From the NCBI GenBank assembly GCA_001600455.1, contig BCKC01000010.1:1556556-1620555 (forward strand): a DNA stretch of 64,000 nt, in the 5' to 3' direction. Positions 21,056 through 58,705 of the stretch are shown in pieces. The stretch is from Endocalyx cinctus. Taxonomy: Eukaryota > Ascomycota > Sordariomycetes > Amphisphaeriales > Apiosporaceae. The notes under the pieces were generated by a model. It saw only the letters and a list, made by a program, of their open reading frames with translations, did no database searches and had not been told where the DNA came from. Positions within the stretch are counted from its first letter, which is position 1. Each line of letters begins with the position of its first letter. A program made the position numbers and the translations under genes.

Positions 21056-22276
21056 ATGCGATTCAATGCAAGCACCATTCTTCAGCTACTCAATGTAGCT
21101 GGAGTGAGCTCTGCTTCTGTTCTTCGTCATAAAGTAATCCGGTACCAAGGGGGCGGTAATGGCACTAGAACCATTATGTCATCTACTCCAAAGCTCGAGT
21201 ATGATCCAAATACGACTTCATACTGTACCTGGTGGCACGATAGCAGGGAGTCCATCAGTTGTTTCGAGCTGCTGGAGGACAATGCCATCACGTTGGCAGA
21301 CTTCCGGCGATGGGTTAGTTATTTGCCCCCTCCCCTCCCCCCTCTTTCAGAAAGGCTTTTCGCTGACATACCTTGACTCGACTCCTAGAACCCTTCGATT
21401 GACGCTACGTGCTCAAACCTCGAAGTAGGCCACTCTTATTGTATTGAAGCGGCCTTCGAGCCGGCACCACCTACTACCACTACTACCGCTCCACCGAGCA
21501 CGACGGCCGCCCCTGGAAACGGGTGAGTTATTCTTGCGTGCTGGTTTTTAATTTCGTCACTTCACATCTTAGCTAACATCGTGCAAAGTATCACAACCCC
21601 AACCCCAACCCAACCTATCATCACTTCGGACTGCAACGCGTTCTACTTCGTGGCGCTCGGGGATACCTGCGACGTCATCGCCTCCAAGCACGGGATCACC
21701 ACCGCGCAGTTTCAAGAATGGAACCCCAGCGTCGGCGCCGCCTGCGGAGGGATATGGGCGGACGCGTACGCCTGCGTCGGCGTCGTCGGGTTCACGCCCA
21801 CCCCGTCCGAGCCCGGTAATACCGGCAACGGGATCGAGACGCCGACGCCGACGCAGCCCGGCATGACGGACGACTGCGACGCGTTCCACCTCGTCCGGAA
21901 GGGCGAGACCTGCGCCGCCGTCGCCGCCGCGAACGGCATCACGCTCGCGCAGCTCGCCGCCTGGAACCCCAAGGCCGGCGCCACCGGCGCGTGCGCCGGG
22001 CTCTGGGCCGAGGCGTACGCGTGCGTCTCCGTCGTCGGACACGTCCCCACCCCGGCAACGCCCGGTAACGGCGTCGAGACGCCGACGCCGATCCAGGACG
22101 GCATGGTCGGGAACTGCGCCGCGTTTCACTTCGTCGCGGCGGGCCAGAACTGCGCGACGATCGCGCCCCTGTACGGCGTCAGCGTGGCGAGCTTGATTAA
22201 ATGGAATCCCGCGGTGGGTTCGGGATGCGGGGGCTTGTGGGCTAACACGTACATGTGCGTTGGTGTCTTGCCTTAG
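21056..22276 (+). CDS. Secreted protein with four LysM domains (LysM effector-like)
   Basis: Proposed exons 21056-21313, 21389-21522 and 21589-22276 give about 359 aa. The N-terminus is a moderately hydrophobic leader (MRFNASTILQLLNVAGVSSA), probably a signal peptide. The first LysM is split by intron 1 (CTWWHDSRESISCFELLEDN joined to the NPSIDATCSNLEVGHSYC part). Three more follow in exon 3 as tandem units, each with a Cys near the start, GDTC/GETC/GQNC, a WNP motif and a closing YACV or YMCV. Thr/Pro linkers (ETPTPTQPGMT type) separate the domains. LysM domains bind chitin or other N-acetylglucosamine glycans. Fungal proteins built only of LysM domains often mask chitin or protect hyphae. 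No catalytic domain is present. Exon 3 is far richer in GC than its surroundings, and the repeats look recently duplicated. Confidence 0.88.
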
Positions 22277-29093: not shown

Positions 29094-30738
29094 ATGTCTT
29101 ACAGAATCTTTACAGCGGCTCTTGGGGTCATTGTGACCACAGTGGTCTTTTTTCGAGCGCTGTTACGATTTACTCAGGATTCCCAAGAGCCTCCGGTGAT
29201 TGATTTCCCCATTCCATTCCTTGGTCCCATTATTGGGATGATATCGAAGAAATCTAAATTCTATAGTTATATCAGGTACGTAGTTCGTTTTCTCTAGTTT
29301 TGCCATGTTTGACTGTTTGCTTTAGGAACACGTATGGACACCCGGTCTACACTCTACGACTGCCTGGCTCCCGAATTTATGTCATTAATTCCACCTCTCT
29401 CATTCCCGTCGCGCAACGTCAATTCAAAACACTTGCCTTTGGACCCATTGAAGTACGAGCAGCGGAGAATGTTATGGGCGTCAGTAAATCCGGAGTAGCC
29501 ATCATGCAAAAAGATATGGTCGGTGATCACGGCTATCTGACAACATTCAATCATGCAATACACCCCTCGCTATCTCCTGGCCCTGATCTCGATGCTATGA
29601 ATCGTGTCTCTGTGGATACCATTGCCAATTCTCTAAACACCTTTGCTGCGAAGCCATCGCGCATTCAATTGTTCAAATGGGTTCGCCACGAGATGTTTAT
29701 GGCCACCAGTGATGGAGTTTATGGGCCTCAGAACCCCATGAGAAACGCTGAAGTTGAGGCTGCCTGGTAGTAAGTCGGCTTTACCTCTTCATACATATAT
29801 GTAGTGCATGCTGACCATAAAAAAGTGACTTTGAGCCAACGATTGTGCTGTTTCTCATAAACATGATGCCAAAGCTGCTGGCTCCTAAAGCTTATCGTGG
29901 TCGCGAAAGAGTGGTGGAGGCATTGGCACGATATTATCTCAAAGGTAGCTACAAGGACGCCTCTTCACTGACGAAAAATCGATACGAGCATAACGTCAAA
30001 CATGGCATACCAAAGGACGATATCCCAAGAACAGAGGTTGGAAACATATTTGCTACTATTGGAAATACAGCCCCTGCCGCTTTCTGGATGCTCTATCATA
30101 TCTACTCCGACCCAGTCCTTCTCGGTGATTGTCGGCGGGAGGTATCAAATATTATCCAAAGCGATGGCAATATCCGCAAGGTGGACATAACGGGTGTGAA
30201 GACCCAGTGTCCGACTCTTCTGTCAGCGTTGAAAGAAGTGTTGCGGTTCCACGGCACGGGCATCTCAACTCGTATGATATTGGAAGATCACATGCTAGGC
30301 GACCAGTATCTATTGAAGAAGGGAAACATGCTGATGATTCCGGCGCCAGTCCAACATACATTTCCTGACATCTGGGGTGACAACGTAGACGAGTTTTTTG
30401 CGAAGCGTTTTGTGCGATTGGCGCAACAAAAACGCCCAAATCCTGTCGCGTTTCGTGGGTTTGGTGGAGGAACCGTTCTTTGCCCCGGAAGGCACTTCGC
30501 TAGCACCGAGATTCTAGCATTTACCGCGCTCATTATTATGCGCTTTGACTTACGACCGCCAGGTGGGAAATGGTCACATCTGGGGACAGAAAAGGCACCC
30601 CCATCTTCCTCTGTCGCGCCTCCTGATGTAGATTTGGAGGTAGAGGTAATGCTAAGAGATAGTTATGAATGGAAGGTCTCCTTTTCAGGATCTGATAAGA
30701 CCATGGAAATTGCGGCTGAAGATATTAAATCTACGTAG
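29094..30738 (+). CDS. Cytochrome P450 monooxygenase (RiPP-locus candidate)
   Basis: Proposed exons 29094-29275, 29326-29769 and 29826-30738 give about 512 aa. An N-terminal membrane anchor (residues about 5-25) suggests the ER. The heme loop FRGFGGGTVLCPGRHFA puts the ligand Cys at about 428, and the ExxR motif is KEVLR. The I-helix reads FATIGNTAPAAFW, with Asn in place of the usual acid-Thr pair. This pattern is seen in fungal P450s related to the CYP7/CYP8-like group, where oxygen activation can differ. It is a monooxygenase or oxidative rearrangement enzyme of unknown substrate. It lies 4 kb from the UstYa and precursor genes in the same gene neighbourhood, so tailoring of the peptide is possible, but sequence alone does not prove it. 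The alternative is an unrelated secondary-metabolism P450. Confidence 0.88.
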
Positions 30739-31935: not shown

Positions 31936-32544
31936 ATGGCTCAGCCATTTCGCTCAAAGAGACTACTCTACCGCCTACCGGAACCGGCAGATGAGGGGTT
32001 ATTCCTAGCGAGCCAGGCCGAACTCATCTCCTTCCAAAATTCTAGTCCCCAGCTCTTCAAACCTCAAACTCCGCAAGACGCTCGGGACTACCAGAAAGCC
32101 GTCGAAGAAGCGTTATTGGGCGTAGTGATATGTCTACCTGCTGGCTCCGAAGCGCGTGACTCGTCTACTTCAGTCAATCAGCAGCAAAAGCATGTTCCCG
32201 TTGGCTTCATCCATCTGTCACCGTTAAGACCGAAGCTCGCGCATCATCGCTTCTCCGAGATCGGCATCGTTATCTTTGAGTCCTACCAGGGGAAAGGATA
32301 CGGTACCGAGGCGATCAGTTGGATCTTGGACTGGGCTTTCGACACGGCCGGCTTGCACCGTGTGGGGATTAAGGCCTTCGAATACAACTACGGTGCGAGG
32401 AAGTTGTACGAGAAAATAGGATTCAAGCAAGAAGGTATCACTAGAGAGACGTTTTGGCATGCTGGGCGATGGTGGGATGATTTTCAGTTTGGGATGTTGG
32501 ATAGAGATTGGAAAGAGATACGAATGAGTCAGGGTGGTTCATAG
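31936..32544 (+). CDS. GNAT-family N-acetyltransferase
   Basis: This single-exon gene encodes 202 aa of a GNAT acetyltransferase (RimJ/RimL-like, Acetyltransf_3 type) that transfers acetyl from acetyl-CoA to an amine. The start region (FRSKRLLYRLPEPADEGLF) matches the usual first strand of the fold. The acetyl-CoA pyrophosphate loop is QGKGYG (118-123), preceded by the strand EIGIVIFESY. The C-terminal NYGARKLYEKIGFKQEG is the conserved last part of the family. Length is normal. Substrates range from ribosomal-protein termini to small metabolites and antibiotics. Its place between the P450 and the UstYa gene raises the possibility that it acetylates the peptide product or gives self-protection. 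That is inference only. Confidence 0.87.
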   Translation: MAQPFRSKRLLYRLPEPADEGLFLASQAELISFQNSSPQLFKPQTPQDARDYQKAVEEALLGVVICLPAGSEARDSSTSVNQQQKHVPVGFIHLSPLRPKLAHHRFSEIGIVIFESYQGKGYGTEAISWILDWAFDTAGLHRVGIKAFEYNYGARKLYEKIGFKQEGITRETFWHAGRWWDDFQFGMLDRDWKEIRMSQGGS

Positions 32545-32660: not shown

Positions 32661-33849
32661 TTAAGTCGACTCAGATAGAACTGGGTCTCCCTCTCTGTGC
32701 CTGACCATAGTGGTGCCCATGTCAATATGGTTTTCCTCATACCAACCCAGGATAGCATCAAAGTTCTTGCATTGCGCGTGGAAGTTGAAGTCCTTATCCG
32801 GTCCTATTCCATCAACGAACCATTGTCCGTAGACCATGGTATTGGCATTACACATGATGAACTGTCTAAGCATGTCCAAGCAGTGAGCTAGAAAGAGGTG
32901 AAAATTAAACGTCAGTAACTCGTAATTAGGAAAATTAAAATGGGCAAGTTAATACTGACTGAAATGCTCATAGAGGTCATCTTCATCCTTGTAGCCCTCA
33001 AACGCGGTACCCGGTGCCTCGTCAGTATAGGCCTTGGCTCTGTAGTAGTCCCAGTTCCAGTGAGAGGTTTGGCGGATTAAGTTCTATAAATTTGTTTTTT
33101 GTCAGTCAATAAATTGCAAGTCTTTCCTTGAAATTTTTCTCCACATATACATTTCTAATGAACTCACCAAACAATGAAGGTCGTGGAAAACAAACACATC
33201 GGCCATATATCCGCTACCTTGCTCAGGGACTCTTTGCACTTGACCTTTTTGGAGGCCAAAAGACGCTGCTTCTTCAACAGGAACGACAATTGATCCAACT
33301 AATTAAAGATGCGTTTAATTTTAGCAAAGTTTCTTGAGAAATAAAAACAGAGGAAGGGTCATCTTACAGTTTGTTCCTAAGGCGAGCCATGCGTCGTCAA
33401 CTTCTTTGCTGGGGTGTTGACGATAGATAGTCCACTTATGAACCGATCCATTAATAAGTGTCTCTTGGTACAGTTCGCCGAGATCTTTCTCGATTGGGGA
33501 ATCTGAGAGAAAAGTTATTAGCGGTCAGCACTTTAAAATTCATAGTTGTCTTTTCACCAAGTTAAAAATTCATGTAGTTACCGAATGTTTTACGCTCATG
33601 TTCATGTTCATGCTCATGTTCGTGGCCATGCTCAGCTTGGTGGATCTCCAAGAGCTGTTTCCAAGCCACGGCATTCAGCGCAACTGACGTTACCAGTGCG
33701 ACTAAGATCAGGCTGTAGGAGATAGCCTTTAAAGCCCCTCGTTTTCTCCCCTCGCGTAGCCTTCGAGTGTCGTGTGCCTCGAGGAGGGATTTTTCATCTT
33801 CTAATGGCTCATACTTGACAGAGTCCTGGGAGTTGTCTCTGTATGCCAT
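32661..33849 (-). CDS. UstYa-family (DUF3328) oxidase, first copy, His-rich stem
   Basis: Five exons (33849-33582, 33502-33368, 33298-33168, 33083-32960 and 32887-32661) give about 294 aa with consistent phases. An N-terminal cytosolic tail is followed by one membrane helix (about residues 42-63), so the catalytic part should be lumenal. Both family motifs are present: HDLHC at 173-177 (YMADVFVFHDLHCL) and HFTHC at 218-222 with the trailing LDMLRQFIMC. UstYa proteins act in oxidative cyclisation of fungal RiPPs (ustiloxin, phomopsin and asperipin pathways) and in some other mycotoxin pathways. Just after the helix is an unusual alternating Glu/His run (residues 73-83), which may bind metal or be a microsatellite expansion. 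The gene is divergent from the peptide precursor, 1 kb away, and the two could share a promoter region. Confidence 0.92.
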
Positions 33850-34852: not shown

Positions 34853-35260
34853 ATGAAGACCTCACTTATTATCACTCTCTGCACCACCTTCGCCGCTGTT
34901 CAGGGGCTGGCTATCCCACCTCGCTCTGAGATGGAAGTTGAGGAGGTGAACTTCCCAGCTCCTCACAACAGCTACAAGCGCGATGTTCAGGATGTAAACT
35001 TTCCCGCTCCTCACAACAGCTACAAGAGGGACGCTGAAGAAGAGAAGAGGGACGTTCAAGACGTCAACTTTCCGGCCCCTCACAACAGTTACAAGAGGGA
35101 TGTCCAGGACGTGAACTTCCCTGCCCCCCACAACAGCTACAAGCGGGACGCTGAAGAAGAGAAGAGGGACGTTCAAGACGTCAACTTTCCGGCCCCGCAC
35201 AACAGCTACAAGCGTGATGTGCAGGACGTGAACTTCCCTGCTCCCCACAACAGTTACTAG
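34853..35260 (+). CDS. Kex2-processed repeat precursor, candidate dikaritin-type RiPP
   Basis: This intron-free gene encodes 135 aa. Residues 1-18 (MKTSLIITLCTTFAAVQG) form a clear signal peptide. The rest consists of six perfect copies of VNFPAPHNSY, with N-F-P-A-P-H-N-S-Y at 33-41, 49-57, 72-80, 88-96, 111-119 and 127-135. Five copies are followed by KR and the sixth by the stop codon, so Tyr is the real C-terminal core residue. The sequence before the core is EMEVEEV in copy 1 and DVQDV in the others, so the conserved block starts at Val or Asn. Two acidic spacers (DAEEEKR) split the copies into three pairs. Seven KR sites in total fit Kex2 cleavage in the Golgi. Dikaritin precursors (ustiloxin, phomopsin, asperipin) have this same architecture with a Tyr-containing core. 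Two UstYa-family genes flank it. A repeat pheromone or other secreted peptide is the main alternative. Confidence 0.9.
   Translation: MKTSLIITLCTTFAAVQGLAIPPRSEMEVEEVNFPAPHNSYKRDVQDVNFPAPHNSYKRDAEEEKRDVQDVNFPAPHNSYKRDVQDVNFPAPHNSYKRDAEEEKRDVQDVNFPAPHNSYKRDVQDVNFPAPHNSY
34931..35257 (+). repeat. Six core-peptide repeats in three pairs (117-bp higher-order unit)
   Basis: Cores lie at 34949-34975, 34997-35023, 35066-35092, 35114-35140, 35183-35209 and 35231-35257. At DNA level two sub-types alternate. From the second pair on, odd copies carry GACGTTCAAGACGTCAAC and even copies a GATGTNCAGGACGTGAAC form. Each pair plus its spacer makes a 117-base unit. Differences between units are mostly synonymous, so the pair appears to have been duplicated as a block while the core was held constant. 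Confidence 0.85.
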
Positions 35261-36984
35261 ATGGGGAGGCGATAAGCATCTGGCTACTGCAGCGCCTTGA
35301 CAATTCTTGCAATACTCGTCNGGGGGGGGGGGGGGATACATACTTCTAGTTTGTCATGACGATAGAAGGATAGGAGGGGGATAGATGGAAAGGGGTTTAT
35401 TTCCTAGCATGTATTTAGTTTAAGCTCTGTAGTATCGGAACACAGGGGTCATCTCCGGATCCCTGCCGTTATACATGACTAGGATAATAAATAGATGGCG
35501 TTAAAGATATTAGTGCAGATCTCGGTTCTCTTAATTAATTCCTTGTTTAATCTAAATGATTACTCCGTACGCCACATCGAGAAACACGGCACTCAATCAC
35601 ATATTATATGATAGTTATTGAGCTGATGTCACAATGATAATAAAACCATACATGCACACAAAGCAGGCTGGCCGAAGACAGCACATTCATGTTATGCCAA
35701 GATTTTGAACTGCTAGCACAGATACGATGAGAAGGCCACGAAGCACGGCGCAGTAATTTACAGCTTCTGTAGCGTCATTTCGGTCCCGATTAGTACGATG
35801 AAGAGCAAGACTTGGGTGTGGATAATGGCTGTTGGTAGCCAGTGTTATCTTAAGTTGGATCCTGCTCGGCCGGTTTAACCCGTGGTTAGTTCGCCATCGA
35901 TGCGGGCGAGAAGGAATACGATCCTAGTTCGGGAGGGAAATATCTTCCGATACTGTTCGGAGTCAGCGGTTTCATATGATTACATAGTCAAAAGGACTTC
36001 GCAGACCAGAACGGTTGAGGTTAGACTATAGCGACAAAACAAATATCGGGTTATGTAATACCTGGGCGGTCTAGATCCTCGGCATCCGTACGAGTCATAT
36101 TTGGGCGCGCGGTGGAGTATAAACGACAAGAATATATTAATATAGGAACCAGAAAGGGGAAAGTAGGCTTGGCTTCAAAATCCTACTCTGGGTACCAGGA
36201 GAGTATTTAAAACGATGAATGGTGGACATTCAACGGCGCAACCCATGGGAGTTAAGCGGCGCGGGTGGGGAGTTTTAACTTTTTGCAGCGCGGAATGGGC
36301 CGGGAAAATCCACTTTCCAAATTCTTCTTGGTTCTGCATGGAGATCCGTCTGGGGCACAAGTAGTTTATATAAGACCCCTGTTAATAAAAGCGATACCGA
36401 GCCGCAACATATCTTTCTTTTTTTGGAGTAAGGTCGTAGATAAGAATTCAAGTTTATTCGGCTTTTGATATATTCGAAGCTTAATCATCGCATAAGCACA
36501 TATACCTATACACACGTGCCTATAGAGCAGGCCAGGGTTTGTGCCGGTTTCTCGGCGCTCAACCATGGTATCAAGAACGATTCTTCATGGAGGATTTCAC
36601 CTTTTTAGAGAATGATAGAGAAGATTCTTTCGTGACGTCTTATTAGTAAATAGTGGATCGGCGGCTGGATGCTCTGATACGATTCTGGTTATTGGTCGTC
36701 TTTTTGTATCTAACCATACTTGAAGTCCTATTGGGTGGACGTCGGCCTCTTTTCTTCCAGAAATATCCAGTTCAGGAAGTAAGACTGCTCAAGACCTAAC
36801 TTTCCCGCTCTTCCATAGCCACCTTTCGATACTTCTTCCTTTTCAACCATTGTCGTAGAAAGTACCACTCAACTTGAGTCTTCTTCTTCTTTCAACCCTC
36901 AAGATTCTTTTTCTTTCTCTATCTGTGTCTCTTATTCAATCTCAATATCAATCTCAATCTGCATCTCCATCTCCATCTTTAACA
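35261..36984. other. Spacer between precursor and second UstYa gene
   Basis: This is 1.7 kb without a recognised gene. It includes the precursor 3' flank, one undetermined base at 35321 followed by a run of about 14 G (35322-35335), and C/T-rich leader sequence with repeated CTCAAT/CATCTC words (36940-36980) before the next start. Confidence 0.6.
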
Positions 36985-37912
36985 ATGTCGCGTACGAGTT
37001 CTAGTGATATGTCCCGGGAGAACTTGCTTCCAGTCGAGGAGCAAGAGAAAGACGATTCGTTAAAGCTGCAAAAGCAACCGGGCCGTATGTATAGACTTTA
37101 TCAAAGCTTCAGCAAGCGACGCTTCTACACGAACGGAATCTCGGTTCTGCACCATGTTATTCTCCTGGTGCTGTTCGTAGTCAGTGTGCGGGTAGCCTAC
37201 CTTCAAGGACTTGGTCGTCTTACACCGAGATCCTATCGAAGTTTTGTTCCACAAAGTATGTCACACAGACACTTATACACAGATTTTATACCTTCTCTGG
37301 CTGACCATTGTACTCCAAACGTAGTTGGAAATGCTCCTGGCCCAATCCAGTTCACCGACAGCGCCGACTGGTCAGGCAACACGTCCCAGGCCGCCGTCAA
37401 ATGGAACAAGTGGTTGGTGAACTTCGAGACGCATACCATCGCAATCCCAACACCCCAGATCGAGGAATTCGGATACGAGCCCGGCCTTCCGGATACGCAG
37501 CACTCGGAACGATTCGGTATCGCCATGTTCCATCAACTCCACTGCTTGGTAAGGAATAGCTCACGTTCTCCAAGATGGTTCTTACCTTTTTTCTTTCAAC
37601 TCTTCTAATAATAACTTCTACTATAATTAGGCGACGATTCGGGAGTTCGCTTACCTCCCGGACGCGATGAGGATGCCCGACGGCAAGCCTCTGGATCACG
37701 ACGGAGTCGAGTTCTCTTCATTTCACATGGATCACTGCTTCAACTATTTGAGACAGGCGATTGAATGCTTTGCTGACTCGACGGTCGAGTGGGCCAAGGT
37801 GAACCAGCATGGACAAAGGCAAGGTATCCAGGGTTGGGGTATTCCTCACCACGAGTGTCGCGACCGCGATACATTGGAGGCATTTGCGATCAAGCACCAT
37901 AACGTTAACTAA
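36985..37912 (+). CDS. UstYa-family (DUF3328) oxidase, second copy
   Basis: Two exons (36985-37548 and 37631-37912) give about 281 aa. I start at the ATG of MSRTSSSDMSREN, because the 37 residues upstream in frame are low-complexity leader sequence. One membrane helix (about 52-72) follows a cytosolic tail, giving a type II topology with a lumenal domain. The two family motifs are HQLHC at 183-187 (FGIAMFHQLHCL) and HMDHC at 220-224 with FNYLRQAIECFAD. The intron falls directly after HCL, at the same place as intron 3 of the other copy, which supports common origin. The two copies differ strongly in sequence, like the paired UstYa/UstYb proteins that act together in ustiloxin cyclisation. It is 1.7 kb downstream of the precursor, in the same direction. 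Confidence 0.92.
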
Positions 37913-58173: not shown

Positions 58174-58705
58174 CTACATAACTGAGGATTTTTCACTAGG
58201 CGCATAATCCCCAAGTAGACCAAGCGCATCCTTATACTCCCTCTCGATGACGTCCGCATGTTGCTGAGAACGAGGTCGTATCGAACACGGGAACGGTAGG
58301 GGACTAGAATTAAACCCATCCGTGAAAGCAAATCTATTTTTTTCCCTTTAATGTTAGTCACTCATAGACCAAAGTTATATATCAACGAAAAGAGAGAGAG
58401 AAACTCACATATCGACTTCATCCGCGTCTTTCTCCGGTTGGACGTCAAAAGCCCACAATATCCGCGCGATGTTGAGCGATACCGACGCCGATCCCAGATA
58501 CATGCCCGGACATATGCGACGGCCCCAGCCGAACGCGCTGTGTCCCAAGTTACCGGGATACTTGCGCGGTTCCAGGAATCGCTCGGGTTTGAACTCGTGG
58601 GGTTCGGGAAAGTCGGATTCGTTGAGGTGGACTATATATTTTTTTTGTTTCATTCGCGATATTAAAGACAGACAGACATACACACATATATTGCATAGAC
58701 GCAAA

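Follow-up and report, generated by a model that had tools for sequence, protein, structure and literature searches.

The 64-kb stretch of DNA analysed here (the window) carries at 34853-35260, on the forward strand, an open reading frame that translates without interruption into a protein of 135 residues. This precursor starts with the hydrophobic segment MKTSLIITLCTTFAAVQGLAIPPRSE and continues with six copies of VNFPAPHNSY; NFPAPHNSY is found in 6 of 6 copies, with a Val ahead of each. The first core occupies 34949-34978 (+), its start falling on the Asn or the Val codon, i.e. within 3 bases, and has the acidic EMEVEE ahead of it, while the sixth, counted as NFPAPHNSY at 35231-35257 (+), abuts the stop codon; the dibasic pair KR follows the other five (5/6). 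Six perfect copies, KR sites between them and a Tyr end at the stop codon had been reported in an earlier note on this DNA, and the translation bears this out. The signal peptide that it had proposed is supported by the hydropathy of the N-terminus and its conservation in two homologues. The core lacks Cys and Trp and has one Tyr, which is the last residue in all six copies. The computed neutral masses of the linear peptides are 1045.4617 Da for NFPAPHNSY, 1144.5301 Da for VNFPAPHNSY and 1601.7110 Da for DVQDVNFPAPHNSY; the residue sum of NFPAPHNSY is 1027.45 Da, and the 1045.46 Da previously quoted for it refers to the neutral linear peptide instead. In a Pfam scan of the precursor no family scored above its cut-off, and matches to TP0453 (Pfam) and to thiovarsolin and TpgA (NCBIfam), all below the curated cut-offs, were taken as repeat noise. 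The sole N of the window lies at 35321, ahead of a G run just past the precursor gene.

At the DNA level, Tandem Repeats Finder described the precursor gene as 2.7 copies of a 117-base unit (score 493), which holds two cores because an extra DAEEEKR segment is present between copies 2 and 3 and between copies 4 and 5. In shuffled versions of the precursor (n=2000), no 4-mer occurred more than three times. Compared over their 30 bases, the six core copies vary at six sites, all of them third codon positions, through at least 10 changes that leave the protein unaltered. If changes were spread evenly, such a silent-only pattern would have a chance of ~1e-7, a crude figure given that the copies share a history of duplication. 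The KRDVQDVNFPAPHNSY block of copies 2-6 spans 16 codons, 11 of which vary, again only synonymously. The silent-only variation across the core and the DVQD stretch therefore shows that the protein sequence is being kept, in a block that extends beyond the core.

The UstYa-family genes and their neighbourhood

The precursor gene is flanked on both sides by exons of the UstYa family (DUF3328), spotted by their HxxHC motifs and by Pfam PF11807 scans. Splice models for the two genes, with introns of 69-84 bases, were built by hand. UstY1 lies at 32661-33849 (-) and encodes 294 residues (PF11807, E 3.7e-40) in five exons (33849-33582, 33502-33368, 33298-33168, 33083-32960 and 32887-32661), one of the donor sites being the less usual GTCAGT. 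UstY2, at 36985-37912 (+), encodes 281 residues (PF11807, E 9e-25) in two exons (36985-37548 and 37631-37912). Each model contains two HxxHCxxxxR motifs, and the alignments cover positions 9-220 (UstY1) and 13-220 (UstY2) of the 220-position profile; the two proteins are 23% identical to each other. Since the start of UstY1 on the reverse strand is 1.0 kb from the start of the precursor on the forward strand, the two form a divergent pair, and UstY2 follows 1.7 kb downstream of the precursor on the same strand as the latter. The two intergenic regions flanking the precursor have five 10-mers in common, against an average of 4.08 and at most 11 in 50 base-composition shuffles, and no shared word of 11 bases or longer, so a common promoter motif was not detected there. 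Across the 44.76-Mb genome (15 contigs), 48 exon-level PF11807 matches were scored, some of them closely grouped (e.g. C2:5575586-5580383), which makes it likely that there are more such loci. An AlphaFold model of the NU459 homologue of UstY1 described below (P0006), built with 13 sequences, had a mean pLDDT of 45.5, too low for use, and was confident only for approximately residues 50-70, the membrane helix; a search of solved structures gave a single irrelevant match for UstY1 (E 0.12) and no match for a 13-row profile.

The wider neighbourhood was scanned with Pfam using 27 window ORFs, the UstY1 and UstY2 models and the precursor; since these are only part of the ORFs of the window, a small gene or one split by introns could have escaped notice. 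A GNAT acetyltransferase ORF (31936-32544, +; Pfam) adjoins UstY1, and the C-terminal part of a cytochrome P450 is found at 29821-30735 (+; PF00067, E 1.5e-25); either is at most a candidate cluster gene. The match of the P450 to the RiPP P450 ApyO (31.8 bits against a cut-off of 525) was taken as general P450 likeness. A large TPR protein lies to the right, on the UstY2 side. No transporter or reductase beside the precursor was recognised among the 27 ORFs, an Na+/H+ exchanger-like ORF and an epimerase-like ORF both being more than 18 kb away from it. Of the 39 exon-level tyrosinase (PF00264) matches in the genome, the window holds none, and the closest on its contig (C10:1812836-1813511) lies ~192 kb past the window end. 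The window has no S41 peptidase match either, the single one in the genome being on contig C11, and no unsplit Zn2Cys6 motif was found in the window, where an intron-split one would escape such a search. The window also encodes a fungal rhodopsin-domain membrane protein near the P450 (27434-28012, -; PF20684, E 1.5e-08), a LysM-domain protein (21527-22273, +; PF01476, E 1.7e-18), pieces of a glycoside hydrolase of family 5 (PF00150 and PF18564; 45508-47983, +) that flank an ORF without a Pfam match, and pieces of a second cytochrome P450 (59493-60074, -), with a heme-type motif near 58533 (-). Elsewhere in the genome, the tyrosinase matches at C10:1888658-1889392 and C15:4060-4794 have identical scores, open-frame lengths and stop counts, and C15 may duplicate part of C10.

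Homologous precursors and the HNSY end

Homology searches with the precursor returned three homologues with cores ending in HNSY, annotated only as hypothetical proteins or left nameless. A search of ~5.8 billion proteins gave a single match among 1789 candidates, P0002 (MBLNU459_g2869t1) from Dothideomycetes sp. NU459, with an E-value of 2.9e-17. The start annotated for this protein is probably placed too far upstream; from residue 68 onwards, it opens with MKTATVFAFCAAFAAVQGLAI, which resembles the window precursor, and contains seven TLTQHNSY units, the last of which ends at the stop. A second search with the window precursor and P0002 cut to this start, in which scoring was limited to 7992 candidates, added P0003 (E 1.0e-13) and P0004 (E 2.0e-5) among the matches listed. 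P0003 carries MKASGFLALCAFFATIQGLAI and three VT[TS]PALHNSY units, which again run to the stop; in P0004 two units can be read, VATPATHNSY and VTSPAVHNSY, and its tail resembles these repeats read out of frame. A search for HNSY listed it at the end of all 18 readable units (six in the window precursor, P0001, seven in P0002, three in P0003 and two in P0004), and P0001-P0003 show no unit that lacks it. Ahead of it stand V-x-x-P-A-x in the window precursor, P0003 and P0004 and x-x-T-L-T-Q in P0002; the homologous cores thus vary except for HNSY, which is their conserved end. The VNFPAPHNSY form of the conserved block delimited in the earlier note fits two of the three homologues, in the form V-x-x-P-A-x-HNSY, whereas the part common to all of them shrinks to HNSY. 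Wherever the precursor end is intact (P0001, P0002 and P0003), the last unit stops at HNSY, and this encoded stop agrees with Tyr being the mature C-terminus. In the genome of the window fungus, searches with P0002 and P0003 returned only the window locus, and a back-translated HN-x-YKR pattern gave five matches at the locus and three elsewhere, with Thr or Trp in place of Ser, compared with six for the reversed control.

A profile of UstY1 and UstY2 retrieved 17 proteins at E <= 1e-20. Five of them are UstY1-like, with 57-76% identity, and come from Truncatella angustata (a 198-residue piece), NU459, Mollisia scopiformis, Hypoxylon rubiginosum and one other source; eight further relatives are 31-44% identical to UstY1, and four partial proteins are UstY2-like (60-69%). 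The NU459 protein, MBLNU459_g2871t1, is 57% identical to UstY1, the left-hand UstY of the window, and its gene is two locus tags away from that of the precursor homologue g2869t1, both being listed with a contig of 293742 bases; no UstY2 homologue from NU459 is among the 17 matches. In a tree of 15 rows, from which the four UstY2-type pieces were left out and in which the very long UstY2 row was kept, the window UstY1 pairs with that of Truncatella angustata (Sordariomycetes, Sporocadaceae) with support of 99/99, the six-row UstY1 group is moderately supported (78/77), and a long branch (95/93) separates the eight more distant relatives. The HNSY core family occurs in the window fungus, which this one gene places near Truncatella, and in a Dothideomycete, and so has relatives in probably two fungal classes. 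No precursor from Truncatella, Mollisia or Hypoxylon, which carry UstY1 homologues, was among the matches listed in either search; this may reflect missing annotation, or UstY1 may be independent of this precursor.

A possible pathway and its alternatives

Dikaritins are peptides derived from Kex2-processed repeat proteins and cyclised by UstYa homologues, and five had been reported according to a 2022 review (PMC10512285). The window locus has repeated cores split by KR (Kex2) sites behind an endoplasmic reticulum signal peptide, as judged by hydropathy and conservation; two UstYa/DUF3328 genes beside the precursor; and, in all six cores and in the homologous ones, a terminal Tyr able to provide the side-chain bond, Tyr being the bond-forming core residue in ustiloxin, asperipin and phomopsin (PMC7329392). 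The marks of the ustiloxin/phomopsin subgroup, a tyrosinase, an S41 peptidase and a zinc-finger regulator in the cluster, were not recognised here. A dikaritin-type architecture had already been proposed from the precursor, and that assignment gains from the two flanking UstYa-family genes, which the earlier note did not mention and which stand out against just 48 exon-level PF11807 matches genome-wide, and from the UstY1 homologue near the NU459 precursor. We therefore consider it likely that this is a small dikaritin-type biosynthetic locus, whose Kex2-released units would be oxidised by the two UstY proteins, probably at the Tyr of HNSY.

In such a pathway, the precursor would enter the secretory pathway and be cleaved by Kex2 after each KR, and a Kex1-type carboxypeptidase would then strip the KR, so that the sites predict 14-residue units of the DVQDVNFPAPHNSY type with a free Tyr end; for copies 2-6 the released piece would be DVQDVNFPAPHNSY itself. 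The two presumably membrane-anchored UstY proteins would oxidise the peptide, most likely by joining the Tyr of HNSY to a nearby side chain, and loss of its acidic N-terminal residues by trimming would reduce it to about VNFPAPHNSY or NFPAPHNSY. UstYa homologues are reported to be indispensable for cyclisation via Tyr in ustiloxins, asperipin-2a and phomopsins, and in the survey that states this, Tyr is present in 65.6% of the repeat sequences that have a DUF3328 neighbour versus 38.2% of those without (PMC7329392). Because HNSY is invariant and holds the single Tyr of the core, it is the likely site of modification. A more specific and speculative proposal, which we regard as doubtful, is that HNSY is a new UstY substrate signature, in which Tyr would be joined to the imidazole of the His three residues ahead or to the Asn two residues ahead, closing a small C-terminal ring while the variable residues tune the target. 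Such a C-terminal Tyr-His or Tyr-Asn ring, if real, would be new in kind among dikaritins as far as the literature examined goes.

The same genes can be accounted for in other ways. The repeats might be excised and secreted as a linear signal peptide, such as a pheromone or hormone, with the UstY genes serving elsewhere or adjoining it by chance. Kex2-processed repeat proteins do include pheromones, and linear peptides ending in Tyr are possible. The ascomycete alpha-pheromone core is of the type W-C-x3-G-Q-x-C-W, whereas the present core has neither Cys nor Trp; this strict motif occurs nowhere in the genome and hence provided no positive control, and with the classical alpha-pheromone gene not located, no known pheromone can be pointed to elsewhere. 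Among 216 putative fungal pheromones in the fungal survey, 98.6% lacked a DUF3328 neighbour, as did 100% of 227 yeast alpha-mating factors (PMC7329392), whereas here there are two, one on either side, and in NU459, too, the precursor homologue has a UstY1 homologue linked to it. On core composition and these published base rates a pheromone identity was judged unlikely, and the linear-peptide explanation as a whole appears improbable.

The UstY proteins might also alter the peptide in ways that form no ring, for instance by desaturation or hydroxylation. Three UstYa homologues of the phomopsin pathway are reported to be needed for desaturation besides cyclisation (PMC10512285), and the pairing of two UstY genes with a core that has a single Tyr suggests that the steps are of more than one type; however, the reported requirement of UstYa homologues for cyclisation in the ustiloxin, asperipin-2a and phomopsin pathways (PMC7329392) and the invariance of the single Tyr in the HNSY cores both speak for a ring, and we hold modification without one to be unlikely. 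Repeats expand readily, and the gene might instead encode a repeat protein that is structural or part of the cell wall, or might be decaying and yield no peptide, but the differences among its copies are silent only, the homologues again show the cores, the KR sites and the end at the stop, and the protein has no Pfam family above cut-off, which together make this very improbable. A tyrosinase-dependent, ustiloxin-like pathway was set aside, there being no tyrosinase match near the locus.

Relation to known fungal peptides

NFPAPHNSY had no match in the literature searched, and the HNSY core family is absent from the main texts searched, including PMC7329392 and PMC6339444; supplements, figures and Nagano 2016 were outside this search, and an earlier listing there is possible. 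Taken together, the sequences of the HNSY-ending precursors suggest a peptide family that is undescribed but of a known kind, the dikaritins. The locus offers a compact testable case, with one precursor, two UstY genes and four fixed terminal residues at which modification is likely, and HNSY-KR repeats provide a short signature for finding more such loci.

The locus resembles that of ustiloxin B (UstA, UstYa, UstYb and UstQ) in the acidic residues before the core, the KR after it and the two UstY genes, and the Kex2 products proposed for the UstA repeats are 13-14-mers (PMC6514808). It differs in that Tyr is the first residue of the YAIG core and the last one here, and in that the window has no tyrosinase match. 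In the epichloecyclins, the repeats of GigA are probably cut by Kex2 and yield nine-residue peptides (PMC9233826); there, however, an internal Tyr is linked to an N-terminal Ile, whereas in the HNSY family Tyr is C-terminal and none of the cores contains Ile. Asperipin-2a of Aspergillus flavus (aprA, aprY, aprT and aprR) shares with the present locus a repeated core that ends in Tyr (FYYTGY), a UstYa-family enzyme and a small gene set without a tyrosinase (PMC6514808), and since the window has neither a tyrosinase nor an S41 peptidase match, its gene set is closer to that of asperipin-2a than to that of ustiloxin. Yet the core sequences are unrelated, there is one UstY gene there and two here, and here no transporter or reductase was recognised beside the precursor among the ORFs scanned; with one Tyr per core instead of three, the Tyr-based bicycle of asperipin cannot be copied. 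Production of asperipin-2a by its original producer was confined to solid maize (PMC10512285). A 2020 survey of 1461 fungal strains found DUF3328 among the 15 closest genes of 1758 out of 7878 Kex2-processed repeat proteins, with an average of 1.7 each (PMC7329392). As pairs of such a precursor and UstYa-family genes are thus numerous in fungi, the present locus belongs to a known kind, and it is the HNSY core family that it adds.
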